A stretch of DNA of 44,084 nt from Acidobacteriota bacterium (GTDB lineage: Bacteria > Acidobacteriota > Terriglobia > Bryobacterales > Bryobacteraceae), in contig VFZW01000010.1 in NCBI GenBank assembly GCA_016871055.1, positions 1 to 44,084 of the forward strand, read 5' to 3'. How positions within the stretch are numbered: the stretch's first letter is position 1; every line of letters starts with the position of its first letter. The translations under genes and the position numbers were made by a program. Shown piece after piece: positions 1-24,815 of the stretch. The notes under the pieces are model-generated. The model was not told the origin of the DNA. It worked only from the letters and a program-made list of their open reading frames with translations, and did no database searches.

Positions 1-1465
1 CGGATTCAGTCTTGTCAAGATTTGTGGAAAAGGGCCGGGTGCGAATACCCTGGCCAAAGCGCCGCCCCCAATATTCCGCCACCGGATATGACCCATCCAG
101 AGGCGCGCCTTCGGGAACGAGAAATTCAAGCGAAAAAAAGTCGCTAAAAGCCTCGCCCATCGAACTACCCTGAAAACTCGACAACTGCCGCACCAGCCGG
201 AGCGAGACACCGTGTGTGTATTCATGGATGATCACGTCGGAGGCCAGCGATCCGTCGGCGAATTGCCCGTTGTTCAGCGTGACGTACATCGCGATCATCG
301 CCGCTTCACCGTCATCAATCGACCGGGTAGTGTAGAACGCGTTGTTGATCGCGGCCAGCCCCGTTGTCGCCTGAGTACCGTAATGAGCATAGGCGAACAA
401 GCGGTCGCCTTCAATGCCGCCGCGGCCGAAATTGTACTGCTGGTAGTTGCCGGCGGCTTCATCGAATCCGATTGCGTGAAAAAGATCGTGGGAGCGATTC
501 ACCCAGTAGAAAAGGTTTGTTGTCGCGGCGCTGGGGAATGCGGTCGGTGGCGGCGGATTCGAACCGTGCACGAGGGGAAACTGGAAATCGAGATTCGGCG
601 CTTTCGCCGTCACGGGATTCTGCAGAAACGCTACACCGAGCGGATTGAGCCCGGTAATCGTGTTGTTCCCCGAAGTCTCTCCGTTAGCAACCCACGGCGA
701 GGGGAACGGCATGAATTCGCGGTCGACATAAGGGGGAGGATCGAGCGACGCGAACCCAAATCGGACTGGCGGCTGCGGACTGATACCGGTGAAGACGAGC
801 CCGCGCGGCGCTTGAAACATTGTCATTGCATGTTTCGCCAGCACACGGTCCGTCTCGGCTTCAATGACCGTTTGATACGTCGAAATGCCGTCGGCATCCG
901 TCACAACAAATTCCCATGCCGGCTGGAGCGCGCCACGAATCGCGAACCACACCGGGCGGCCAGTGATGTCGCCCATCGCGCCGCCAGTCGAAAAACGCAA
1001 TTCGGCGCGATGATTCAACCCCGCCTGCGAAATCGTCGCTTCCGCGGCAAGCACAGGGTTGACCGCCCGCGCGGCGGCCCCCGCGGCACGTCGCATATTC
1101 AAAGGCGATGGCGGACGCACGCCGGCTTCGGGAGCGTCGTGCAATTGCCCGCCCGCGTTGAGCACCTGTCCATCTCGATCGATGTTGACAACCCATTCCG
1201 CACCGTGAATATCAAGGCCTTGGAAGCGCTGGCGGTAGACGATATGCGTCACTCCGTTGTGCTGGGTCTTGTACTCTTTGTGCACGTAGAGTCCGGCAAC
1301 CGATGGCTTTTGATCGCGCGTGAACGAATCCGCGATTTCGCGCGGCGCGCCGACGCTTGGCGATGTCAACGCGCGATCGGCCCGGAACAATTTCCGTTCC
1401 AATGGCGAGCTAAACAGCACGGCGGACAGGAGCGGAATAATCCGGGCGATTGAGGTGGTTTTCAT
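1..1465 (-). CDS. M36 fungalysin-family secreted metalloprotease (C-terminus outside window)
   Basis: The frame is open from an ATG at 1465 to the left edge, giving about 488 residues without a stop. It encodes a zinc metallopeptidase of family M36. The zinc site is visible: HEYTHG at about residues 414-419 (bases 209-226) supplies two His ligands and the catalytic Glu, and MGEAFSD about 20 residues later supplies the third ligand (about Glu438). The upstream stretch NLFYWVNRSHDLFHAIGF is typical of the family. The first 200 or so residues resemble an FTP-type propeptide (YRQRFQGLDIHGAEWVVNID), so it is probably made as a secreted zymogen. The N-terminus is hydrophobic, as in a signal peptide. 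It lies 30 bp downstream of the beta-helix gene on the same strand and may share its transcript. The missing part should hold the rest of the catalytic domain and possibly sorting or TIGR03437-like domains. Confidence 0.88.
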   Translation of the reverse strand, partial: MKTTSIARIIPLLSAVLFSSPLERKLFRADRALTSPSVGAPREIADSFTRDQKPSVAGLYVHKEYKTQHNGVTHIVYRQRFQGLDIHGAEWVVNIDRDGQVLNAGGQLHDAPEAGVRPPSPLNMRRAAGAAARAVNPVLAAEATISQAGLNHRAELRFSTGGAMGDITGRPVWFAIRGALQPAWEFVVTDADGISTYQTVIEAETDRVLAKHAMTMFQAPRGLVFTGISPQPPVRFGFASLDPPPYVDREFMPFPSPWVANGETSGNNTITGLNPLGVAFLQNPVTAKAPNLDFQFPLVHGSNPPPPTAFPSAATTNLFYWVNRSHDLFHAIGFDEAAGNYQQYNFGRGGIEGDRLFAYAHYGTQATTGLAAINNAFYTTRSIDDGEAAMIAMYVTLNNGQFADGSLASDVIIHEYTHGVSLRLVRQLSSFQGSSMGEAFSDFFSLEFLVPEGAPLDGSYPVAEYWGRRFGQGIRTRPFSTNLDKTES

Positions 1466-3464: not shown

Positions 3465-4658
3465 TTATATCGATTCTTCGTCTGGCACCAACTGACGGAT
3501 CGGCCCAAGTAGCAAACCGTAAAGCACACACGCCACCAGCAGGATCGCCGACGCGCCGCAAAAGGCCGCCAGGAACGATCCGGTATAGCTGACGCTCCAG
3601 CCCGTCACGATGGGCGCGATAACGCCGCCCATGTTGCCGACGGCGTTCTGCCAACCCGTCCACGCGCCGGCGGCGCGGGGGCCGGCCAACGTTTGCGAAA
3701 TCGCCCAACAGTTCGCTGTGAACATACCAATTCCGATGAAAGCCACAATCAAACAAATCATCGCGAGATTGTTTTCGAGCATCGTCGACCCGCTGAGCGC
3801 CGCCGCGGCGATGATCAATCCGGCCACGGCAAGCCTTCGGCGCACTTCGCCCGGCGCGCCCGTTTCACGGCCGCGTTTATCCGCGTACGTCGCCGTCGCC
3901 ACCGAGGCGATCGCGGTTGCCGCGAACGGCAACGCACCGTAGATCGCCATCGCGCGCAAACTGAAGCGGCGTTCCCTCACAAGGTAGGTTGGAAGCCACG
4001 TGAGTAGAAAGTAGTAGGCGTAGTTGAAGCAGAAAAGTCCCGCGAAGGTGATGTACGAATCGCGATAGATGAAGATGTTCGCGGACTTGACCTTCGCGGC
4101 GGAGTGTTTTGCCTTTGGAGGGATCGATGCGTTCCACGGGATCAGCCAGATCAGGGATGCCACTCCCATTACAAAGAAAAACGGCCGCCAGCCCCACTGG
4201 GCGATTACCATCGCGCCAAGAAACGTACCGAGCGCCGGCCCCGCTTTCGTTCCCGCATCGATCATCGAGTTCGCGAAACCCCGGCGGTCTTCGGTAAAGC
4301 CCGCAGCCAGCAACCGCGAATAGGCCGGATACGCCAGCGATTCGCCCGCACCGAGTAACAGACGAGTGGCGAGCAGAGAGTAAAAGCCCGTGGCCAGCCC
4401 GCCGGCGGCGACCGCGATCGACCAGATGGCGAACGCCGCGGCGTAGAGCCGGTAGGTGTCGTAGCGGTCGATCAGCCACCCGGCGACGGGTTGCAGAAGC
4501 GAGTAGGTCCAGAAAAAACCGGACAGTAGAATTCCCATATGGCTCGGCGTGAGTTGCAACTCCGGCGCGAGTGCGGGCGCCGCGACGCTGAGGTTGCCCC
4601 GATCGATGTAGTTGATCCAAACGGAAATGCAAAGGAGAACGAATGCGCGGGTGGACAT
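3465..4658 (-). CDS. MFS permease, anion:cation symporter (hexuronate/galactonate-like) type
   Basis: A 397-residue integral membrane protein with about 12 hydrophobic segments. The first helix reads NYIDRGNLSVAAP, a signature of the ACS branch of the major facilitator superfamily, which imports sugar acids such as glucarate, galactonate or hexuronates with protons. The loop signatures GWLIDRYDTYRL and RLLLGAGESLAYP also fit. I choose the ATG at 4658 (MSTRAFVLLCISVWINYIDRG) because family members begin right before this helix; an extension to 4766 is possible but adds an unusual hydrophobic segment. The substrate is inferred. The downstream beta-helix gene follows after 10 bp, so released uronates are plausible cargo. 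It diverges from the beta-propeller/LacI pair across a 206-bp gap. Confidence 0.88.
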   Translation of the reverse strand: MSTRAFVLLCISVWINYIDRGNLSVAAPALAPELQLTPSHMGILLSGFFWTYSLLQPVAGWLIDRYDTYRLYAAAFAIWSIAVAAGGLATGFYSLLATRLLLGAGESLAYPAYSRLLAAGFTEDRRGFANSMIDAGTKAGPALGTFLGAMVIAQWGWRPFFFVMGVASLIWLIPWNASIPPKAKHSAAKVKSANIFIYRDSYITFAGLFCFNYAYYFLLTWLPTYLVRERRFSLRAMAIYGALPFAATAIASVATATYADKRGRETGAPGEVRRRLAVAGLIIAAAALSGSTMLENNLAMICLIVAFIGIGMFTANCWAISQTLAGPRAAGAWTGWQNAVGNMGGVIAPIVTGWSVSYTGSFLAAFCGASAILLVACVLYGLLLGPIRQLVPDEESI

Positions 4659-4716
4659 GTGTATTAGTGCGGCGATTTGGACGCAACCAACCATGATAAC
4701 GATCAACTCCATCAAC

Positions 4717-4726
4717 CCACGCGTGG
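4717..4726. promoter_or_regulatory. perfect 10-bp palindrome CCACGCGTGG in a divergent intergenic gap
   Basis: CCACGCGTGG is a perfect inverted repeat with a central CpG, lying between the divergently transcribed MFS permease (start 4658) and beta-propeller gene (start about 4865). LacI-family operators are typically palindromes with a central CG, and a LacI-type regulator is encoded just downstream at 6112. Operator function is inference; the arms are only 5 bp and such a palindrome can arise by chance in GC-rich DNA. Confidence 0.25.
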
Positions 4727-4864
4727 TCATCTTGATGCCGATCGTACTCGAATCACCCCACTCCACTGCACCGCCAATGACGCCGCAGTCCGACGATGAT
4801 GCGCCACGCCAAAATGAAGCGCGCTCCTCGGCGAGAAACTCATCGTAGCGCTATGATGAGGATC

Positions 4865-6115
4865 ATGCGACTGGCATTACTCCCGGTGATCTTCGCCCTC
4901 GGCCTCACTGCAGCCAACTGGCCTCAATGGCGCGGCCCTTCCCTCGACGGCGTCAGCGACGAAAAAGGCCTTCCCACCAAATGGACCACCGACGATAACG
5001 TCACGTGGAAAGTAGCTCTTCCAGGCCGCAGCGGCGCCACCCCCATCATATGGGGCGAGCACATTTTCTTGAATGTCGCCGACGGCGAAGACCTCTACCT
5101 TTGGGCCGTCGACCGCAAGGCCGGCGGCGTGCTTTGGAAGAAGAAAATCGCCAGCGGTAATTTCAAGATCAACAAACAGAACATGTCGTCTCCATCGCCG
5201 GTCACCGACGGCAAGACCGTCTTCAATATGACAGGCACCGGCATCTTCAAGGCATTCGACTTCTCGGGCAACGAACTCTGGTCGCGCGATATTCAGAAGG
5301 ACTACGGCGCCTTCGGACTCAACTGGGGCTACGCCTCCTCGCCTTTGCTGTGGAACAACACGCTCTATGTGCAAGTCCTGCACGGCATGAAAACCGACGA
5401 TCCCTCCTACCTTCTCAAGATCGATCCGAAAACCGGAAAGACCATCGTCAAAGTCGAACGCCCCACCGACGCGATTGTCGAATCGCCCGACAGCTACACC
5501 ACGCCCGCCATTTGGACCTCCGGCAAACAGAGCGAGATCATCATCAGCGGCGGGGACGTCGTCACAGGACATGATCCCGCCACGCTGAAAGAACTCTGGC
5601 GCGCCAACATTCTCAATCCGAAAAACAATCCGATGAATCGAATCATCGCCTCGCCGGTCGTGCGCGACGGCCTCATCTACGCGCCCACGCGCGTGCGCCC
5701 GCTTTCGGCGTTACGGCCGGGCGGCAAGGGCGATGTTTCGAAGTCGCATCTCGTTTGGCAGAATCCCAACGGCCCCGACGTGCCTACTCCCGTCACGGAC
5801 GGCAAGTATCTCTACATTACCAACGATCGCGGCATAGTCTGGTGCCTCGACGCCAAGACAGGCGCCGAAGTATACGGCGGCAAACGCATCAAAGCGGCGA
5901 TTTATAGCTCCTCGCCCGTGCTCGCCGACGGCAAACTTTATGTGACCAACGAAGACGGCCTCGTCACCGTCGTCAAGGCAGGCCCGCAGTTCGAGGTGCT
6001 CGCCGAAAACGACATGAAGGACTACACACTCAGTTCGCCCGCCGTTAGCGACAGCCAACTCTTCATCCGCACAGCCGGCTATCTCTACTGCATCGGCAAG
6101 CGCGCGGCAAAGTGA
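4865..6115 (+). CDS. secreted PQQ-like beta-propeller protein (first of two)
   Basis: A protein of about 416 residues with signal peptide [16 protein letters not shown] followed by NWPQWRGP, the usual start of the outer-membrane or periplasmic PQQ-like repeat proteins common in Acidobacteriota and Planctomycetota. Repeats with the W/G pattern of eight-bladed propellers recur ([66 protein letters not shown]). No quinohaemoprotein catalytic signature is evident, so a binding or scaffold role is as likely as dehydrogenase activity. The start is uncertain: ATGs at 4853, 4856 and 4865 all precede the signal peptide; GAGG lies close to the last one. The end overlaps the next gene by 4 bases (GTGA), indicating translational coupling with the LacI-type regulator. 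It is a paralogue of the protein at 10758. Confidence 0.85.
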
Positions 6116-7110
6116 GCACTCGAAGCCTAGAGGATGTCGCCAAACTCGCCGGTGTTTCGACGGCGACGGTTTCACGCGTATTAAACGGCGTCGGCAAAGT
6201 AACACCGCGCACGCAGGCGATTGTGCGCAAAGCCGCAGCGGAATTGAAGTATTCGCCCAACATGCACGCGCGCGCGCTCGCCGGAGGCGCCACGAAGAGC
6301 ATCGGCCTTGTTGTGTCGAATCTTTCCAATCCGTTCTTCCTCGACGTTTTCCACGCGCTTGAACACGAAGCGCGCCACTATGGCTACGAACTCCTTGTCG
6401 CCAACACCGACTACGACCCGGAACGCCTCGTCGCGAACGTGCAATTGATGCTCGGCCGCCGCGTCTCGGGTCTCGCGCTCGTTGTCTCCGAGATCGCTCC
6501 CAATCTGCTCTCCGAACTGTCGGAGCGCAAGATTCGCACCGTGGTAAACGATGTCGGTGCGCCGATGCCGTACATCTTTAATGTCAAGACGCACTACTGG
6601 CGCGCGACAGAGCGAGTCGTCGAATACCTCTTCAACATGGGTCACCGCCGCATGGCCTTTATCGGACATCACTCCGCGCTCGGGCCGCTTGGTGAACGAA
6701 ACCCCGCATTCCTCGACGCAATCGATCAACATCGTGGTCTCGTCGAGCATCGAATTGTCGCCGCCGACGACAGCCTCGACGGCGGCCGCGAAGCGGTTCG
6801 CGAACTCTTCGCAGGCGGCGTGCGCCCAACCGCCATCGTATGCGTCAACGACTTCTTGGCCGTTGGCGTCCTTCGCGAACTGCGCGAAATGAATCTGCGC
6901 GTCCCGGCCGACGTATCTGTTACCGGATTCGATAACATCAGGCTTTCGGAAATGCTCTCGCCTTCGCTAACGACCGTGCACATCTCCTCCAACGTCCTCT
7001 GCCGCAAGATATTTCACATGCTAACCGACGAAGACGAGCCTCAGCGCGAATTCGTAATCGATCCCGAACTCGTGCTGCGCGAATCGACCGGCCCTAGCCC
7101 TTCGGCTTAA
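6112..7110 (+). CDS. LacI-family transcriptional regulator
   Basis: A 332-residue protein beginning with GTG. The N-terminal helix-turn-helix is clear ([20 protein letters not shown], residues about 6-25), followed by the hinge-helix region ([12 protein letters not shown]) and a periplasmic-binding-protein-like effector domain ([47 protein letters not shown]). Members usually repress sugar uptake and catabolism genes and release DNA when a sugar or sugar phosphate binds. Coupling to the beta-propeller gene (4-base overlap) and proximity to a sugar-acid permease suggest a local carbohydrate regulon. The 3' end overlaps the convergent small membrane-protein gene by 17 bp. Confidence 0.95.
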
Positions 7111-7588
7111 AATAAAACACCATCGCCGCGCCCGCCGCCACAACCACATAGCCCACGTACAGCAGCGGATTCGGCTTCTCCTTCGGCGGGTGCATCGCCA
7201 TCGTCATCAACACATTGATCAACGGCGCGCCGCCAAACACGATCGGCATCACATAGTTCGGAACGCCGCCGTTGCGAAATGCCCAGATGATGCAGATCGC
7301 CCCCAATGCGCCCAGCGCACCGCCGCCCGTAGCAAACCAAACGCCGCGTGAATCGAACGAGCCCAGCCCGCCCGAGGTTTGCAGCGTAATCACAGGCACC
7401 AGCACGCCCAGCAAGAAGTACGCACCGCCGACGCACAACAACGCGCGCAGCGGATTGCCCAGTTTGATCTGGCCCTCATGCAGAATGGGGCCGTAGATCC
7501 CCCAGAACAGCATCGCGGCGACGGCGAATAGCAACCAGAGCATGGTCTTCTTTTTCTCCTTCGAGTTGGTGGCGGTAATCGTAGCCAT
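7094..7588 (-). CDS. small multi-pass membrane protein, EamA/DMT-like
   Basis: A 164-residue protein with about five hydrophobic segments starting at MLWLLFAVAAMLFWGIYGP. The layout (LFWGIYGPILHEGQ early, PLINVLMTMAMHPP and a terminal [16 protein letters not shown] helix) resembles half of an EamA/DMT-type permease, of the length seen when such transporters are encoded as single five-helix units. The N-terminal KEKKK stretch would lie in the cytoplasm. It starts with ATG at 7588, 23 bp downstream of the TonB-dependent receptor gene on the same strand, so co-transcription is possible. The substrate is unknown; assignment to DMT is by hydropathy pattern and short motifs only. Confidence 0.7.
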   Translation of the reverse strand: MATITATNSKEKKKTMLWLLFAVAAMLFWGIYGPILHEGQIKLGNPLRALLCVGGAYFLLGVLVPVITLQTSGGLGSFDSRGVWFATGGGALGALGAICIIWAFRNGGVPNYVMPIVFGGAPLINVLMTMAMHPPKEKPNPLLYVGYVVVAAGAAMVFYFKPKG

Positions 7589-7611
7589 GGGAACCGACTA
7601 TTGTACTCGGG

Positions 7612-10600
7612 TTAGAACTGCAAGCGCAGCCCGAGTTGAATTTGCCGCGAAGACGTAATCGTCGATCGCACCAGGCCGAAGCTCCCGATCGGGCCTGTCG
7701 TCGCCGAGATCGCCAGTATGTTTGGCGGCCCAAAGTTCGCACGGTTGAACAAATTGAACGACTCCGCGCGGAACTGCAAACGCGCTTGTTCGTTCCACTT
7801 CGGAAACGCGAAGGCCTTGTACACCGCGAGGTCCGCCGTACGCAAATTCGGACCGGTAAGCGTCCCTCGGCCCAAGTTCCCAAGCTGACCGGCGGGCGCC
7901 AACGCAAACGCCGCCGGATTAAACCATTGCGTGGGCGAGCCGATCACCGCCGAATCATGCGTGAAGCCTTGCGCCATGCTCGGCCGGTCGACGCCAATGC
8001 CCGGCCCCAACGACGGCGCCCACGCCGATCTTGACCGGTTGCCGCTCACAAATGCCGTCAACGGCCCTCCACTTCGAACGTTCGTGATCGCCGCCAGTTG
8101 CCACCCGCCAAGCACCACGTGATTGCGAAGAGCCGGCAAGTCCCAAACGAAATTCACCAGCCAGTTGTGCTTGGCGTGATAGTCAGCCAAACCCTTGTTG
8201 TAGTTGAAGCCCGGGAATTCCGGCATCGCCGAAGTCGTTCCGTTCGTGGCGTCGGAAAAGAACGTCGACGCCTGCGTCGTATCGATATTGCGCGAGAACG
8301 TGTATGAGCTCTGAAACTGGACGCCGTGAGCGAATCGCTTGCGAATTTCGAGGATGCCCGAGTGATACCACGAGTTTCCATCGCTCGACTTCAACTCAAT
8401 CGTCGCGAAGTTCGGATTGCGCCGCGGCGCTCCCGCTGGAAACACCAACGTGCCATCCTGCTGTCGCACCGGCTCCACAATATTCACGTCGTTCGATCGC
8501 CAGAGATGAATACCGCGCGAACCCGCATAACCAAGAGTCACTATGAACTGCGCGGGCAACTGCTGCTGCACGCTCAAGTTCCACGTCTGCATGTAAGGGC
8601 TCTTGATATTCCATTCGACAGGCCGGATCGTATTGCCAACGCCTCGCTCAAACGGTGGATTCGGAAACGTCGGATTCGCGATGCTGAACCGCGGTGTGAA
8701 CGGCGGATTCGTCACCGTCACAATCAGGTTCTGCTGATTGTTCGTGTTGAAGATTAACGCATACCCGCCGCGTAGCGCGGACTTGCCGTTGCCGAACACA
8801 TCCCACGCGAACCCAAGCCGGGGCGAAAAATTCTTCTTCGTCGGATTCCGATAGAGCCGACCCACCTTCGGAGCAGCGTCGGTGAATAGATTCAATAACG
8901 CCGAATCGCGGCCGTAGATGTCGACTGGCATCGTCGAGAACTCGTACCGCAGGCCCGGATTGATCGTCAGCCGCCGGCTAACGCGCCACGAATCCTGCAA
9001 GTAAAAACCGAACAACGTAAAGCGCCAGTAGCGGTCGAATTGCGCCGCCGGCGACAAGCCGAGAAACCGCGCCGACGCGTTCGTCAGGAACGACCGCACG
9101 TCGTTGAAGGTGAAGGTACCAAGCGAAAACGTCGGATTCACCATGTTGTCGCGATACCGCTCGGCCAGCATCCCGGCCTTCAGCAAATGTTTGCCGCGCG
9201 TCAACGAAATCGAGGGTTCGACGTTGAACACATTCTGCGTCAGCCGCAAGTTCGCCGAACTCTGCGTGCCGAATCGCGGCATTCCGCCGATATCGATATT
9301 GCCGACCATTCCGCGCCCAGCGACAAACGCCGGCAGCGGATTCGCCGTGTTCGCGAAGACGTTTTGAAACGTCGTCGTGCGGCTGAACGATCCCCGTACT
9401 TGCAGCAGTGTCGTCGGCGACAGCACATGATTGTACTCAGTCGTCAGGAACTGATTCTTCGAGAAGAACTGCCGCGGGAACTGCGGGAAATCGGTTGGCA
9501 GATTCTGCAACGCGTCGTCGAAGGTATACCGCGCGAAGAACTGCCCCGCGTCGCCGATCTTGCGGTCGTACCGGCCTTGCACGAAATGCTGATCCACGGT
9601 CTGAGAAAACCCGAATGCGTAATCGGCCAATCCCCCCGGCCGCGCCGCGCCATTGGCCCTTGGAATCTCATTCAAAAACGGAGCGACCACCGGGCTCACC
9701 GTCACCGGTGTCTGCCCCGGAAGAATTCCGCGCCGCGCGTTTTCGTCCGGCACCTGCGAAACGATCGTGCGGCCCAGCCGGTCGCGCAGCCCTTCGTACG
9801 TCACGAAGAAGAATGACTTGTCGTGCCGAATCGGCCCGCCGAGACTCGCGCCGAACTGATTGCGCTTGAACTCCGGCCGCTTCGCCGGATCGAAGAAGTT
9901 TCGCGCGTCGAAGTTGTCGTTGCGATGAAAGTGATACAAGCTGCCATGCAACTCGTTCGTACCGGACTTCGTGATCGCGTTGATCTGGCCTCCCGAATTG
10001 CGCCCAAACTCCGCTGAGTAGTTGTTGACCTCAACCCGAAACTCGAGAATCGCCTCCACGCCAAGCACCGTGCCTGCCGCCGATCCCGCCGGCCCATTCG
10101 TGAAATCGTTCTGCGGCGTGCCGTCAAGCAAATACACATTCGCCCGCGGGTCTTGCCCGTTGATACTCATGCCGAGCCCATGCGCGACCACCGACCCGCC
10201 ATCGCGATGCGGATACGCCACCACGCCCGGTTGCAATAGCGCAAGGTCCGTGTAGTTGCGGCCGTTGAGCGGCAACTCGCGCATCGCCTTCTCGCTGACG
10301 AGATACCCCAACTCCGCCGTCGCCGTGTTCACACCCGCCGCCGAATCGGTCACCGTCATCTCTTGATCGACCGCGCCGACCTCCATGCGCAGGTCGAGCG
10401 CCAGCGTCTCATGCACCGTCAAAGCCACGCCCTTGCGCACCAGTGTCCGGAACCCCGACGCCTTGGCACGCACTTCGACTTCGCCCGAAGGCAGCGCCGG
10501 CGCCGCGTAGATGCCGTCTCGATTCGTCAACGCCTTGCGCGCCAGTCCGGTCGCGGTTTGACTGACCGTAATCTCCGCGCCTTCAATAACGCCACCGGAT

Positions 10601-10707
10601 GCATCGCGCACCGTACCCGTCAAAGTCGCGGACGTCTGCGCCATCACGGACCAGGAAAGAAGAACAAAGAAAAGTTTCGACAAGCGATGGGACTCGATTC
10701 TCTTCAC
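7612..10707 (-). CDS. TonB-dependent receptor with N-terminal carboxypeptidase-regulatory-like domain
   Basis: A 1031-residue outer-membrane protein starting at GTG 10707. A signal peptide (residues about 1-23) leads into TSATLTGTVRDASGGVIEGA, a carboxypeptidase-regulatory-like (Cna_B/SusC-type) domain to about residue 110. A plug domain follows (ELPLNGRNYTDLALLQPGV; INGQDPRANVYLLDG), then a long beta-barrel ending in the aromatic LRLQF expected for outer-membrane insertion. This is the Oar-like receptor class strongly expanded in Acidobacteriota, thought to import oligosaccharides or siderophores with TonB/ExbBD energy. The ligand cannot be read from sequence. It diverges from the second beta-propeller gene across only 50 bp. 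Confidence 0.93.
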   Translation of the reverse strand: MKRIESHRLSKLFFVLLSWSVMAQTSATLTGTVRDASGGVIEGAEITVSQTATGLARKALTNRDGIYAAPALPSGEVEVRAKASGFRTLVRKGVALTVHETLALDLRMEVGAVDQEMTVTDSAAGVNTATAELGYLVSEKAMRELPLNGRNYTDLALLQPGVVAYPHRDGGSVVAHGLGMSINGQDPRANVYLLDGTPQNDFTNGPAGSAAGTVLGVEAILEFRVEVNNYSAEFGRNSGGQINAITKSGTNELHGSLYHFHRNDNFDARNFFDPAKRPEFKRNQFGASLGGPIRHDKSFFFVTYEGLRDRLGRTIVSQVPDENARRGILPGQTPVTVSPVVAPFLNEIPRANGAARPGGLADYAFGFSQTVDQHFVQGRYDRKIGDAGQFFARYTFDDALQNLPTDFPQFPRQFFSKNQFLTTEYNHVLSPTTLLQVRGSFSRTTTFQNVFANTANPLPAFVAGRGMVGNIDIGGMPRFGTQSSANLRLTQNVFNVEPSISLTRGKHLLKAGMLAERYRDNMVNPTFSLGTFTFNDVRSFLTNASARFLGLSPAAQFDRYWRFTLFGFYLQDSWRVSRRLTINPGLRYEFSTMPVDIYGRDSALLNLFTDAAPKVGRLYRNPTKKNFSPRLGFAWDVFGNGKSALRGGYALIFNTNNQQNLIVTVTNPPFTPRFSIANPTFPNPPFERGVGNTIRPVEWNIKSPYMQTWNLSVQQQLPAQFIVTLGYAGSRGIHLWRSNDVNIVEPVRQQDGTLVFPAGAPRRNPNFATIELKSSDGNSWYHSGILEIRKRFAHGVQFQSSYTFSRNIDTTQASTFFSDATNGTTSAMPEFPGFNYNKGLADYHAKHNWLVNFVWDLPALRNHVVLGGWQLAAITNVRSGGPLTAFVSGNRSRSAWAPSLGPGIGVDRPSMAQGFTHDSAVIGSPTQWFNPAAFALAPAGQLGNLGRGTLTGPNLRTADLAVYKAFAFPKWNEQARLQFRAESFNLFNRANFGPPNILAISATTGPIGSFGLVRSTITSSRQIQLGLRLQF

Positions 10708-10757
10708 GTTACCAGAAGGACGCCGGAAACAGCCAATGCGTAACGTAAACTGGAGCG

Positions 10758-12032
10758 ATGCGTCTCGTTTTCTTAGTGGCCGCGTTCAGTGTTTGCGGGC
10801 CGTCGAGAGCCGCCAATTGGCCCCAATGGCGCGGGCCCGGCTCCAACGGCATCTCCTCGGAAACCAAGCTTGCGGAAGAGTGGTCTCCCGGAAAAAACAT
10901 CGCGTGGAAATCGCCCGTGTCCGGCCGCGGCCGTTCGTCCCCAATCGTCTGGGGCGATCGCATTTTCCTGACAACCGACATCGAAGGCGAAAAAATCGAC
11001 GGCCTGAAGCCCCCCGTGCACAAACTCGGCAACGACGTATTCCGTTACCCGGACTCCACCGGCATGGCCGTGAAACACAGACTCGACGTCTTATGTTTCG
11101 ATCGCAAAACCGGCAAATTATTGTGGCAGAAAACGGCCTACGAAGGCCCAGTCTTCGACGAGCGCCACAAGTCCGGCAGCTACGCCGCACCCACGCCCGT
11201 CACCGACGGCCATGCCGTATACGCCTACTTCGGCGCCGAAGGTATGTACGCCTTCGACTTCGCCGGCAAACTGCTCTGGAAATTCGATCCCGGCAAGATC
11301 CAATCCATCGGCATGGGCCCCGGTACTTCGCCCGTGCTCGGCGGCGAACTCATCATTCTGCAATACGACTCGAGCGACGACAAATCCAAAATCCTTGCGC
11401 TCAACAAACGCAACGGCGAGCTTGTCTGGAAGACCGAACGCAAGACCAGCGTCACTTGGTCCACGCCGCAACTCATCGGCAAGGAGTTGATCACCACCGC
11501 CAACGACATGGTCGTCTCCTACGACCCGAAAACCGGTCGCGAACTCTGGAAAGGGCCCGGCGTCAAAGGCAACGCCGTCCCCAGCCCCGTTTCAGGCAAT
11601 GGAATTGTCGTCGTCTCCGCCGGCTATCCAGATAAATACGCGTACGCGTTCAAGGCAGCCGGCGACGGCAAACCGATTTTGGAATACACCAAAGGAACCG
11701 CCTATGTGCCTTCGCCGATTTTCTATGGGGACTATGCCTACCTCGTCACCGACCGCGCTCTTCTCACATGCCTCGACGCCAAAACAGGCGCGGTGAAGTA
11801 CGAAGGCAAACGCCCGCCCGCGGCCGTCACCATGGCCGGATCGCCCGTCGCCTTCAACGGCAAGATCTTGCTCACCAGCGAGGACGGCGACACCTATGTC
11901 ATCAGAGCCGGCCCCGATTTTGAAGTCGTCCGAACCAACTCCATCGGCGAACCGGTGTTGTCCTCACCCGCCACCTCGAAAGGCATGATCCTGATTCGTG
12001 GTAAAGATCATTTGTTCGCAATCGCACAATGA
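10758..12032 (+). CDS. secreted PQQ-like beta-propeller protein (second of two)
   Basis: A 424-residue protein with signal peptide MRLVFLVAAFSVCGPSRA and then [16 protein letters not shown], paralogous to the protein at 4865. Repeat blades include LDVLCFDRKTGKLLWQK, MYAFDFAGKLLWKFDPGK and [21 protein letters not shown] lies just upstream of the ATG. The last 4 bases overlap the DUF3311 gene (ATGA), so it heads an operon with a sodium symporter and an MFS permease. A role in binding or oxidising a substrate outside the inner membrane before uptake is inference. Confidence 0.87.
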   Translation: MRLVFLVAAFSVCGPSRAANWPQWRGPGSNGISSETKLAEEWSPGKNIAWKSPVSGRGRSSPIVWGDRIFLTTDIEGEKIDGLKPPVHKLGNDVFRYPDSTGMAVKHRLDVLCFDRKTGKLLWQKTAYEGPVFDERHKSGSYAAPTPVTDGHAVYAYFGAEGMYAFDFAGKLLWKFDPGKIQSIGMGPGTSPVLGGELIILQYDSSDDKSKILALNKRNGELVWKTERKTSVTWSTPQLIGKELITTANDMVVSYDPKTGRELWKGPGVKGNAVPSPVSGNGIVVVSAGYPDKYAYAFKAAGDGKPILEYTKGTAYVPSPIFYGDYAYLVTDRALLTCLDAKTGAVKYEGKRPPAAVTMAGSPVAFNGKILLTSEDGDTYVIRAGPDFEVVRTNSIGEPVLSSPATSKGMILIRGKDHLFAIAQ

Positions 12033-12231
12033 TTTTCGTCCTCCTGGTCTACTACGGACTGCACCAAGACTTTTGGAACTGGACTTCCGCGCGTCCGCTC
12101 GTCTTCGGATTCCTGCCCGCCGGTCTCGCCTACCACGCCGTTTACACACTCGGCGCGTCCGCATTGATGGCTCTGCTCGTCCGCCGCGCCTGGCCCGCAA
12201 AACTCGAAGCCTGGGCTGACGAGGAGGCTGA

Positions 12232-12235
<4 letters not shown>
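12029..12235 (+). CDS. DUF3311-type small membrane subunit of a sodium/solute symporter
   Basis: A 68-residue protein with two predicted membrane helices ([18 protein letters not shown] and [17 protein letters not shown]). The short first helix, an acidic or aromatic loop, then a second helix ending in RRAWP match DUF3311-type proteins, which usually sit directly before a solute:sodium symporter and are thought to be its accessory subunit. Both ends overlap neighbours by 4 bases (ATGA upstream, TTGA downstream), so translation of all three genes should be coupled. The C-terminal tail is acidic (EAWADEEAD). Confidence 0.78.
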
Positions 12236-13722
<1,487 letters not shown>

Positions 13723-21367: not shown

Positions 21368-22054
21368 GTGCGCATCACGGTATCGAAAGAGAACTACTTA
21401 AAGGCCATCGCCGAGGCCGAAGCCGAAGGCGAAACCGTCATCGCCGCGACGCTTGCCCGGTGGCTCGACGTCTCCGCGCCCGCTGTCACGATGGCCACGC
21501 GCCGCTTGAAACACGATGGCCTCATCGTCGTCGCGCGCGATGGCCGCATCTCGCTCACCGCTACCGGCCGCGAAATCGCGCTTCGCCTCATCCGCCGCCA
21601 CTACCTCATCGAACGCATGTTGACCGAAGTGTTCGGCATGGAGTGGTACAAAGTTCACGACGAAGCCGAGCAGCTCGAACACGCCGTCTCCGCCGACTTC
21701 GAAGCCAAGCTCATCGAAAAACTCGGCGACGACAAAAACTGCCCGCACGGCTTCGCGCTGGGCCTCGACACGAAAGCGGAACGCGAGCGCCGCGGCATGC
21801 TGGCCTTGAGCGAAGTCACCGGCACGCGCCAAGCCGCCGTCGTCAGCGTGTTCGAGCGCGATCGCGCGCTGCTCGAATACCTCGACCAACTCGGCATTCG
21901 GCCGGGGGCGCTGGTCGATGTCGTTGCGCGCAACGTCGACGCCACGATGACGCTTCGTACCGGCGGACAAACGATCTCGCTCGGCGCGGGTGCCGCCGCT
22001 CGCGTCTGGGTGACGCTACTGCCCGTTCTCGACCCGGTAGAGCAGCCGGCATAA
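21368..22054 (+). CDS. DtxR/MntR-family metal-dependent transcriptional regulator
   Basis: A 228-residue protein starting at GTG. The N-terminal winged helix (NYLKAIAEAE..., LARWLDVSAPAVTMATRRL) is followed by the metal-binding dimerisation domain (HYLIERMLTEVFGMEW, HDEAEQLEHAVS, CPHGFALG) and a C-terminal SH3-like/FeoA-type domain from about residue 145. The cluster with Cys and His (NCPHG), Glu and His matches metal-site positions of DtxR/IdeR/MntR proteins. It should repress metal-uptake genes when Fe2+ or Mn2+ is bound; no such genes are nearby, so it acts in trans or on itself. Its 3' end overlaps the convergent FAD-oxidoreductase remnant by 39 bp. Confidence 0.92.
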   Translation: MRITVSKENYLKAIAEAEAEGETVIAATLARWLDVSAPAVTMATRRLKHDGLIVVARDGRISLTATGREIALRLIRRHYLIERMLTEVFGMEWYKVHDEAEQLEHAVSADFEAKLIEKLGDDKNCPHGFALGLDTKAERERRGMLALSEVTGTRQAAVVSVFERDRALLEYLDQLGIRPGALVDVVARNVDATMTLRTGGQTISLGAGAAARVWVTLLPVLDPVEQPA

Positions 22055-23774
22055 CTCGCCGCGCGTAAGGTTCGACGGCGGCTCGCCCGCCTGCTTCGCC
22101 AAACGCCACCAACGCCGCGCCTCCTCCGGCGTCGCGCGGTCACGGCTGCGCTCCTCGTAGTTCTCAAAGAAACCGCGCGCGCCGAAATACTGCATCGCCG
22201 CGAAGGCGGGATCGGATTGATCGATGTCTTTGAAGTAAGTGATGACCTGCTTGCGTTCCAGCACCGCGCGCTGCAACGCGGCGACATCAACGGCGCGCGG
22301 TGCGGTCGAACGCTCGATCGGCAGATGAGCCGCAATGCCTGCCGCCATGCCCAGCGCCATCCACGTCGGCTCCACGCGCACCGTCGAAAACGCGATATGC
22401 GTGGTCGACGCCGCGACAGGCACGATCAGGCCGTCGACCGCCCGCGGAATCATGACGCGGTATGGAATCTGGTAGGGCCGCGTTTCGTGGTCGAGCATAA
22501 AAACGTAACCCTCAAGCGCCGGCTGTGTCGTCGACTCGCGCCCGCGCACGGGAAAACTGTCAACCGGAAATTCACCCGCCGCGATCGAATCTTCAAAGAT
22601 GGGCGTGCGTCCCCGCCCCGCCTGCAATACCGTATCGTTCTCGGTCAACGTGTAGAGACCCTCCAGCCTTCGCGCCTCGCGAACATAAAGCCGAAACGGG
22701 AAGTTCGCGTTGTCGGCGAACTCGTCTTTGGCGAGGTGATAGCGCCGCGCAAGCTGCCGGTGCGCCGCCGGCACGGCATCGTCGTTCTGCAAAAAATAGA
22801 CCAAGCCGAGAGTCAGATCGCGAATCGAACCCGCGATCCGTTCGCGTTCTGGAGCGTTCGCGTCCGGGTACTTGTAGTTGATCTCGCCGAACGGAAACCC
22901 CAGCGGCCGCGGTTTCATGTTGACGTCGAACTTGCCGTTCGGAATCTCGGCGAAAGACAGCGCGCACCAGCGTTCCAAACGTCGGGCCATAGTACCCAAC
23001 GCCATCCTTCATCGTCTTCGGCGCGTCCAGACGCCCGGCCTTCCAGTCATCAAGATAGCCATGATATCGTGTGCGGTCGTAGCCCGCCGGCGGGGCCAGC
23101 AATGGCGCCGCGTTCGATGGATCGGCCGTCATGCAAAGCCTGTACGTATACGCCGGAATGCGCTTGTCGCCCGCGCCCGTCGAACCAGCGGTCACCTCGC
23201 GCGTGTCGTAGTTCTGATAGATCACGCCGGCGTGTTTTTCATTGAACTCCGATCGCCCTTCGCGCCCCACACGATACGCCGCGCCCGCCGCCGCGAACAC
23301 ATCGCCTTCGTAGGCGCCGTCGATCACGACCGCCGCATGCAGCACGGTGACCTCGCCGGTGGAACGATCCTTCACGCGAAGTCCGGCCACACGCGCACCA
23401 TCTTGAATGACGCCATCCAAGGAAACATGCGTCCGAACCGAGATCCGTCTTTCGTCCGCCACCATTCGATCAATCACACGTTGTGCAACGGAAGGCTCAT
23501 AGTAGTACCCATCGCCCGATTTCTTCACGTTGTCGTGCGACGCGCCATAACGCTCAACGTAATAAGCCTTTACCTTCGACGTGAACTCGCGGAACAGCCC
23601 GCCAATCGCCTCTTTCGTTTCGATATCGCTCTTGCCGAGCCCGCTCGTCGTCATGCCGCCGATGTGCTTGTGATACTCAAGCAAGGCAACGCTTCGACCC
23701 GCTCGCGCGGCCGCGATCGCCGCCGCGACACCTCCCGGCGTTCCCCCGTACACCGCCACCTCCACGAGGTTCAT
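22016..23774 (-). pseudogene. FAD-dependent oxidoreductase, broken by a 2-bp deletion
   Basis: This stretch encodes an FAD_oxidored-type flavoprotein. The dinucleotide-binding start is NLVEVAVYGGTPGGVAAAIA, followed by LLEYHKHIGGMTTSGLG and ESD-like residues. The frame is lost near 22959-22966: the upstream frame ends ...YYGPTFGTLVRA and the rest (LSFAEIPNGKFDVNMKPRPL to the TAG at 22016) continues in another frame. Restoring one CG unit in the CGCGC run would join them as VRALSFAE. There is no stop between this domain and the preceding sialidase-like domain: the frame runs through ELPLAKMNLVEVAVYGG. An internal start at ATG 23774 would give a separate flavoprotein if it were intact. Secreted members of this family are often co-located with glycan-degradation genes. 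Confidence 0.8.
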
Positions 23775-24815
23775 CTTCGCCAACGGCAACTCGGTGATCT
23801 CAATCGACTGCTTGTTCGTCGCATACACAATCCACAGCGATCCGCCGTGTTCAATCGCATGCGGATACTGCACCGTCGCCCCTGCCGGCGCCGCGACAGC
23901 GATGCCTCCGCCAAACGCCCAACCATCGCGGCTGAACGAAATCCCAAGCGGATTGCGGCCCTTCGGATTCGGGTTGTTGATCTAGTAGAACCAACCGTTC
24001 GACAGCCGGCCTGGAAGATTCTTCGACGTTTCGTCGGGGTAGTCGGTGCGCACCGGCGCGGTCCAAGTGCGGCCGTGATCTCTGCTGATCGCCGGCAGCA
24101 ATTCGCCCGACCGTGTGTTGTCTCGGACGATCATATGCACCTCGCCCTCGCGCGTCGCATAGAACATTGGCTCGTCTATCTTGTCGAACGGCGGCGCGGA
24201 AGCGATCGGTGTGTGCCGCCAACCGGGGCCGTCGTCAATCGCCATCCACACGTTCATGTTGTTATCGCGGCACGCCATCGCCAGCGCACCGTTCAATCGT
24301 TCCGGCGGGAAGTTGTTCATGCAGTTTTCGGCGAAAACGCCGCGCGAGCCCCACGCGCCGTTAGACCACTCGAAGCGCATCAGGCGCAGCTTGCGCCACA
24401 CCTCTTCGCGCCCGCGCTTGCCATAGTCGGCGCTTTCGATTAGCGCGGCCAGCGCCGTGAGTTTCCCATCGACGACATAGATGCCGCGCGCGATCCAGCG
24501 CTGCGGACCATCGGGGCCACCCGGATCGGCGGCCAGCACTCGTGCCTCCGGCCACGCGTGCCCGTCCTTGCTCGTCGCTTACAGAATCACTTGATTGGCG
24601 CTGTCTTCTGTCGCGCGGCCCGATGACCACATCGGCCAAAACTGTCCGTCGTGATGCGCTATATAGGAGTGCAGATTGAAGTTCGACACGCCGGGCTGGC
24701 CTTTGAAGACCGTACTCGTGCGCAACGCAGTTGCGCGAAATTCGGGCTTGCCGCTCAACAGGTGTTCGGGCTTCTGTGCAAACGCCGCCGCGCAGAATAG
24801 CAGGATTCGAAGCAT
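23775..24815 (-). pseudogene. secreted BNR/sialidase-like beta-propeller, interrupted by two in-frame stops
   Basis: Starting at ATG 24815, a signal peptide (MLRILLFCAAAFA) leads into a sialidase/neuraminidase-like propeller with Asp-box-type motifs (TSKDGHAWPEARVL, SRDHGRTWTAP, SFSRDGWAFGG). One reading frame covers the whole domain but is cut by TAA at 24579-24581 (in ...NQVIL*ATSKDG, where Tyr is likely) and TAG at 23982-23984 (in ...GWFY*INNPNPKG). The two stops are of different kinds and neither lies at a catalytic cysteine, so recoding is unlikely and decay is the simpler reading. The frame continues without a stop into the FAD-oxidoreductase domain. It starts 10 bp after the GT-C-like gene, so it belongs to that operon. 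Confidence 0.82.

Follow-up and report, generated by a model that had tools for sequence, protein, structure and literature searches.

The window, that is, the whole stretch of 44,084 nucleotides analysed (contig VFZW01000010.1 of the Acidobacteriota genome G000), carries on its minus strand a BNR_2 region and a PF12831 FAD_oxidored region arranged head to tail. The original prediction, which named no strand, had placed both in one open frame across 22016-24815, with neither a stop nor a gap where the propeller (IEITELPLAK) gives way to the flavoprotein (MNLVEVAVYGG). The join itself was confirmed: once past the TAG at 23984-23982, the frame runs without a stop through IEITELPLAK-MNLVEVAVYGG into the FAD protein, with the M codon at 23774-23772, and a sister genome, G007, shows the same frame intact. 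The claim of a single open frame over the whole interval did not hold, as the gene is interrupted three times, by two stops in the propeller and by a frameshift, a two-base deletion near 22967, in the FAD part:

22016 to 24815, minus strand: the whole fused gene (propeller plus FAD_oxidored), a broken copy with an intact 933-aa orthologue in G007
24777 to 24815, minus strand: signal-peptide-like N terminus, MLRILLFCAAAFA, read by eye from the translation; a hydrophobic N terminus is also present in five intact fused relatives
23769 to 24731, minus strand: sialidase-fold six-bladed beta-propeller (PF13088, BNR_2)
24579 to 24581, minus strand: in-frame TAA stop within the propeller, from the translation
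23982 to 23984, minus strand: in-frame TAG stop within the propeller, from the translation
23760 to 23790, minus strand: junction ELPLAK/MNLVEV, without a stop and without a second leader peptide
22019 to 23774, minus strand: FAD-dependent oxidoreductase part (PF12831), its frame broken near 22967
22960 to 22970, minus strand: frameshift, two bases missing by comparison with the intact G007 gene, from the alignment of the two

The PF12831 match in the window is divided over two frames and, as sequenced, this copy cannot yield the fused protein as one chain. An alternative genetic code is unlikely for the gene, two different stop codons plus a frameshift arguing against it. Elsewhere in the window, positions 3465-13719 have the look of carbohydrate use, with an MFS transporter, two PQQ_2/BamB-like propeller proteins, a LacI-type regulator, a TonB-receptor-like outer membrane protein and a sodium:solute symporter, and a fungalysin-type M36 metallopeptidase with an FTP propeptide (5-1465, minus strand) is cut by the window end. 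Neither an Rfam match nor a tRNA was found in the window.

The G007 gene lies on a 7,009-base contig (VFZQ01000279.1) that is 94.7% identical to the window DNA over 6,942 bases, with no gap besides the two-base deletion, and its protein is 94% identical to that of the window over the first 606 residues. Since dN/dS between the two copies was 0.17, against 0.15 for the adjoining membrane-protein gene, the breakage is either very recent or an assembly error. That the lesions are sequencing or assembly errors, or reflect a mixture of strains in a metagenome-assembled genome, and that the living gene is intact, would fit both this lack of any evident relaxation of selection and the state of the window genome, a draft of 713 contigs. 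It is countered by the fact that a single gene has three separate lesions, of which two are substitutions that create stops, in an alignment that is otherwise free of gaps, and we consider error unlikely without dismissing it; recent inactivation of the window copy is the reading with which we proceed.

The nature of the propeller was approached through its fold, its sequence relatives and its conserved residues. A model of the fused G007 protein (m7a240e207439), poor at residues 510-815 and used for the propeller only, had 24 strands, i.e., six blades, with a pLDDT of about 80 in the propeller. Compared with GH33 structures, the modelled propeller gave a Z of 28 and an rmsd of about 3 over about 310 aligned residues, with a sequence identity of 15-16% to both 1eur and 2ber. 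Among solved structures BT_1020 was the best match by sequence (profile E 4e-27), GH33 coming far behind (6e-4), and PF24067, the Pfam BT_1020-like propeller, matched 11 of 18 propellers at 0.001 or better, member 1 (L032) not being among them. BT_1020 (PDB 5mqr) is, we take it, a Dha hydrolase of GH143 joined to a beta-L-arabinofuranosidase module, dedicated to rhamnogalacturonan II, and presumably the bimodular GH143 enzyme of the literature.

Four residues, E215, R231, R287 and Y317, were invariant in all 18 propeller domains, and position 70 was acidic in every one. Asp boxes have the motif S-x-D-x-G-x-x-W, and the corresponding residues S82, D84, G85 and W88, together with S295, D297 and G298, were likewise invariant. 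In the HMMER alignment E215 and R231 fall opposite the Glu and the second Arg of 1eur, and Y317 was placed by motif reading; we assume that these 1eur residues, and the Tyr and Glu of the propeller, have the catalytic and carboxylate-binding roles of sialidases. All 18 domains have FN[LM]H or FALH, as in the motif FNLHSY, where sialidases have the first triad Arg (FRIP), according to a sequence alignment and not to superposed coordinates. With this replacement the sugar may be something other than sialic acid, and the domain may or may not be active. The original prediction had called the domain sialidase-like, and for the fold this is apt; as the name of an activity, "sialidase" is too narrow, since the first triad arginine is absent and the nearest solved relative is BT_1020 and not a GH33 enzyme. 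Our reading is that the propeller probably hydrolyses an acidic sugar of the ulosonic-acid type by a retaining mechanism, and is no classical sialidase.

It is conceivable, if in our judgement rather doubtful, that the propeller is instead a binding or targeting module that steers the flavin enzyme to a glycan and cleaves nothing; the arginine missing from all 18 domains would suit such a role, as would the occurrence in these bacteria of other PF12831 proteins that bear Golvesin_C, a domain related to the C terminus of the xanthan lyase 6f2p. A pure binding module, however, need not have kept the Tyr, the Glu and two Arg without exception, or an acidic residue at position 70, and PMC6811678 describes a bimodular GH143 enzyme, a cleaving relative, in which the Tyr-Glu pair is retained. 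A hydrolytic propeller is what we carry forward.

Downstream of the join, the intact G007 protein has a full-length PF12831 match (335 bits where the cut-off is 27, profile positions 1-416 of 416), and the Rossmann motif G-[GA]-TPGG is kept in 12 of 12 FAD domains. The fold model of this domain was moderate (pLDDT 69.5, pTM 0.81); its FAD core resembled the GR2-type structures of Thi4, flavocytochrome c3 and fumarate reductase (Z 16-18, rmsd 2.5-3.5, about 195-230 residues). No clear solved relative of the substrate half emerged from searches in which sequence matches covered roughly the Rossmann N terminus and fold matches mainly the FAD core, and in which a close structure may have been missed. 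To our knowledge no reaction has been assigned to PF12831, a large family of flavoproteins, and no characterised member was found for comparison; that the FAD part oxidises a sugar is suggested by the company it keeps. A scan of five other long PF12831 ORFs gave no further propeller fusion: three (L096, L101 and L105) have Golvesin_C and two (L094 and L102) PF12831 only. The 1174-aa ORF at L096:628-4149 combines FAD_oxidored, Golvesin_C and a beta-lactamase-family domain. The FAD_oxidored relative at L018:499-3120, matched in L019-L022, has a twin-arginine-like leader (RRSFLH, by eye in L018), and an alpha/beta hydrolase gene lies just upstream of it in L018.

The window copy is not the only one in which the two halves are joined. 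The fused form was present in 7 of 19 same-genus genomes, being broken in the window, cut by the contig end in G005, and intact in the other five, with ORFs of 953 aa in G018 and 951 aa each in G014, G011 and G004 besides the 933 aa of G007. Between intact fused genes, three pairs gave dN/dS values of 0.11, 0.13 and 0.18, low in both halves, and both halves of the fused gene are under purifying selection. As the sister G007 shares the frame in an intact ORF, the join is not due to chance, and as purifying selection acts on intact fused ORFs of the same genus, the fusion is no artefact of a stop lost in the window. The search of related genomes that the original prediction had proposed thus turned up intact fusions, and it is not the case that all relatives carry the genes apart. 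More widely, 117 of 151 related genomes matched the fused query at E 0.001 by either domain. The family and phylum searches scored three and two candidates per genome, and a scan of 85,000 species was made with near-exact peptides, so that fused forms may exist elsewhere. Among viral contigs there was one distant, partial match (L107).

Outside the genus the propeller and the FAD protein are encoded by separate genes that lie side by side. The comparison covered 41 loci, picked for matching one of the two halves. Sixteen of the 24 unfused loci with an FAD relative of at least 50% identity had a propeller gene alongside in the same orientation, the order being propeller-FAD in 13 and FAD-propeller in three (G095, G097 and G609). 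The eight without an adjoining propeller were G020, G043 (where the propeller and FAD genes are on different contigs), G116, G124, G138, G144, G150 and the Hydrogenedentota contig L038, whose match begins near the contig end. A 4-nt overlap of stop and start (ATGA or GTGA) was seen in 11 of the 13 propeller-FAD pairs; the other two are G595, with a 1-nt gap, and G593, where the propeller gene is broken near its end. From the length of its open frame G593 had been suspected of holding a third fused lineage, and a stop was found to separate the two genes. Unfused downstream FAD genes opened with a hydrophobic leader in 10 of 10 examined (of the 13), with peak hydropathy of 2.1-3.4, and the fused linkers were far less hydrophobic, at or below 1.1 in 4 of 4 examined. 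Overlaps of 4 nt, and a leader found only in unfused FAD genes, are what a merger of coupled genes with loss of the second leader would predict. The two genes need not go together, because propellers of the same kind occur without an adjoining FAD gene in G074, G108, G660, G663 and G664; in G006, propeller pieces lie at contig ends with no FAD gene beside them.

How often the merger took place was addressed with trees. In a propeller tree of 39 rows and again in an FAD tree of 31 (which leaves out G005 and G592), the fused forms fell into two clades separated by well-supported branches, one comprising G000, G007 and G018, near G590, G589, G579, G069, G040 and G672, and the other G004, G005, G011 and G014, beside G592 and G593. 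A joint tree (21 rows) also gave two fused clades, and an AU test rejected a single one (lnL difference 119, p 8e-46). The linkers differ by clade (LAKM[NG]L in the one, LRETPRSF or LSAPPKTF in the other), and in an IlvD tree of 18 genus members the same two species sets again formed separate clades, the second of them standing beside G002, G003 and G008, which yielded no fused form. Two independent fusions would be the most economical history and, from these sequences, the likeliest.

A single ancient fusion followed by several fissions is improbable in our estimation. It finds room in the fact that the gain and loss counts were made on an unrooted tree, where gain cannot be separated from loss and losses are possible; yet the two fused clades, held apart by well-supported branches, lie among unfused groups, and fission would consequently have to recur many times, each event restoring a start, a leader and the identical ATGA overlap; the linkers of the two clades also differ. 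That the joined frame is a by-product of decay in the window genome, with no functional fusion behind it, is suggested by nothing beyond the two stops and the frameshift of that copy and is scarcely credible, being ruled out as an origin by the intact fused relatives, with their purifying selection and lack of a second leader at the join, and by dN/dS values that make the decay recent and later than the fusion. The two origins offered by the original prediction are each partly right: an ancestral two-domain enzyme insofar as the fusion predates the window genome (five intact ORFs and one cut, among 19 genomes), and a secondary fusion insofar as it is secondary within the family, where unfused, mostly overlapping genes surround the fused clades.

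Taken together, we think it probable, with some reserve, that the window holds a copy, inactivated not long ago, of a true fusion gene, and that its intact product, a secreted sialidase-superfamily propeller joined to a PF12831 flavoprotein, would cleave and then oxidise a glycan. That a propeller and a flavin enzyme were fused, apparently twice, suggests teamwork on some sugar polymer. A single N-terminal signal-like leader would export the fused protein to the periplasm or cell surface, where the propeller would cleave a terminal, probably acidic (ulosonic-acid-like) sugar by a retaining Tyr/Glu mechanism and the FAD domain would then oxidise the released or adjoining sugar. Fusion would fix the two activities at a 1:1 ratio and allow one leader to export both, and an alpha/beta hydrolase encoded by another gene might open the resulting lactone or ester.

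Alpha/beta hydrolases are found in the company of both halves. In G071 such a hydrolase is fused to the propeller, with the FAD gene next at a 4-nt overlap, and in G609 one is fused to the FAD protein, with a propeller gene adjoining; G595 has a hydrolase-propeller protein with two propellers. Hydrolase-propeller proteins of a more distant kind occur in G018 and in the window's own genome, G000. As propeller-FAD, hydrolase-propeller and hydrolase-FAD proteins all exist, every pairing of the three domains occurs as a fusion. FAD-gene loci without a close propeller may have an adjoining alpha/beta hydrolase gene (L048, L018). Upstream of the pair in L036 are a sulfatase gene and a TonB-receptor-like gene, and the same holds, judged by N termini, in loci such as L043; the surroundings of the propeller-FAD genes look like a glycan-use locus.

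Further arrangements were seen in passing. On contig 25 of the window's genome, L055:5430-7073 encodes an alpha/beta hydrolase with a distant sialidase-like propeller, and L039:11431-13122, in G018, has the same layout and lies beside the fused gene. In L036 (7929-10115) and L037 (2680-4866), a 729-aa tandem double propeller is encoded by one gene between sulfatase-like and FAD genes.

More speculatively, and with the odds in our view against it, the propeller glycosidase, the PF12831 flavoprotein and the alpha/beta hydrolase could constitute an undescribed extracytoplasmic oxidative pathway that cuts off an acidic sugar, converts it by oxidation into a lactone or a keto acid, and opens the product. 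If this were true, PF12831 would gain a function. That every pair of the three partners is fused somewhere in these bacteria, the propeller-FAD pair twice, can be read as the mark of a tight pathway, and repeated fusion to a propeller and to an alpha/beta hydrolase hints at the pathway to which PF12831 proteins, common in these Acidobacteria, belong. The apparent double fusion of one gene pair in one genus, from overlapping genes, also offers a clean case of a coupled operon becoming one protein. The component families are known; their arrangement seems to be new, and no literature on a propeller-FAD fusion was found in a search whose coverage left most subscription journals outside. It is the repeated fusion and the three-way partnership that merit follow-up.

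Set against known systems, the propeller is closest by sequence to that of BT_1020, and both are without the FRIP arginine of sialidases (HMMER alignment), but the second module is another glycosidase in BT_1020 and a flavoprotein here. The blade count may differ too, the propeller of the GH143 enzyme being described as five-fold in PMC6811678 and ours having six blades in the model. With the GH33 exo-sialidases (1eur, 2ber) it shares the six-bladed fold, the Asp boxes and the Glu, the Tyr and two Arg in place, and it departs from them in the absent first triad Arg and in being joined to a flavoprotein. The flavoprotein has in common with GR2-type flavoproteins the FAD-binding core, its substrate-side half being barely covered by matches. 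Like the PF12831 FAD_oxidored proteins, including those of the Golvesin_C type, it belongs to a group with extracytoplasmic leaders and glycan-type partner domains on relatives; unlike the Golvesin_C-bearing ones, it has as its partner an N-terminal sialidase-fold propeller.
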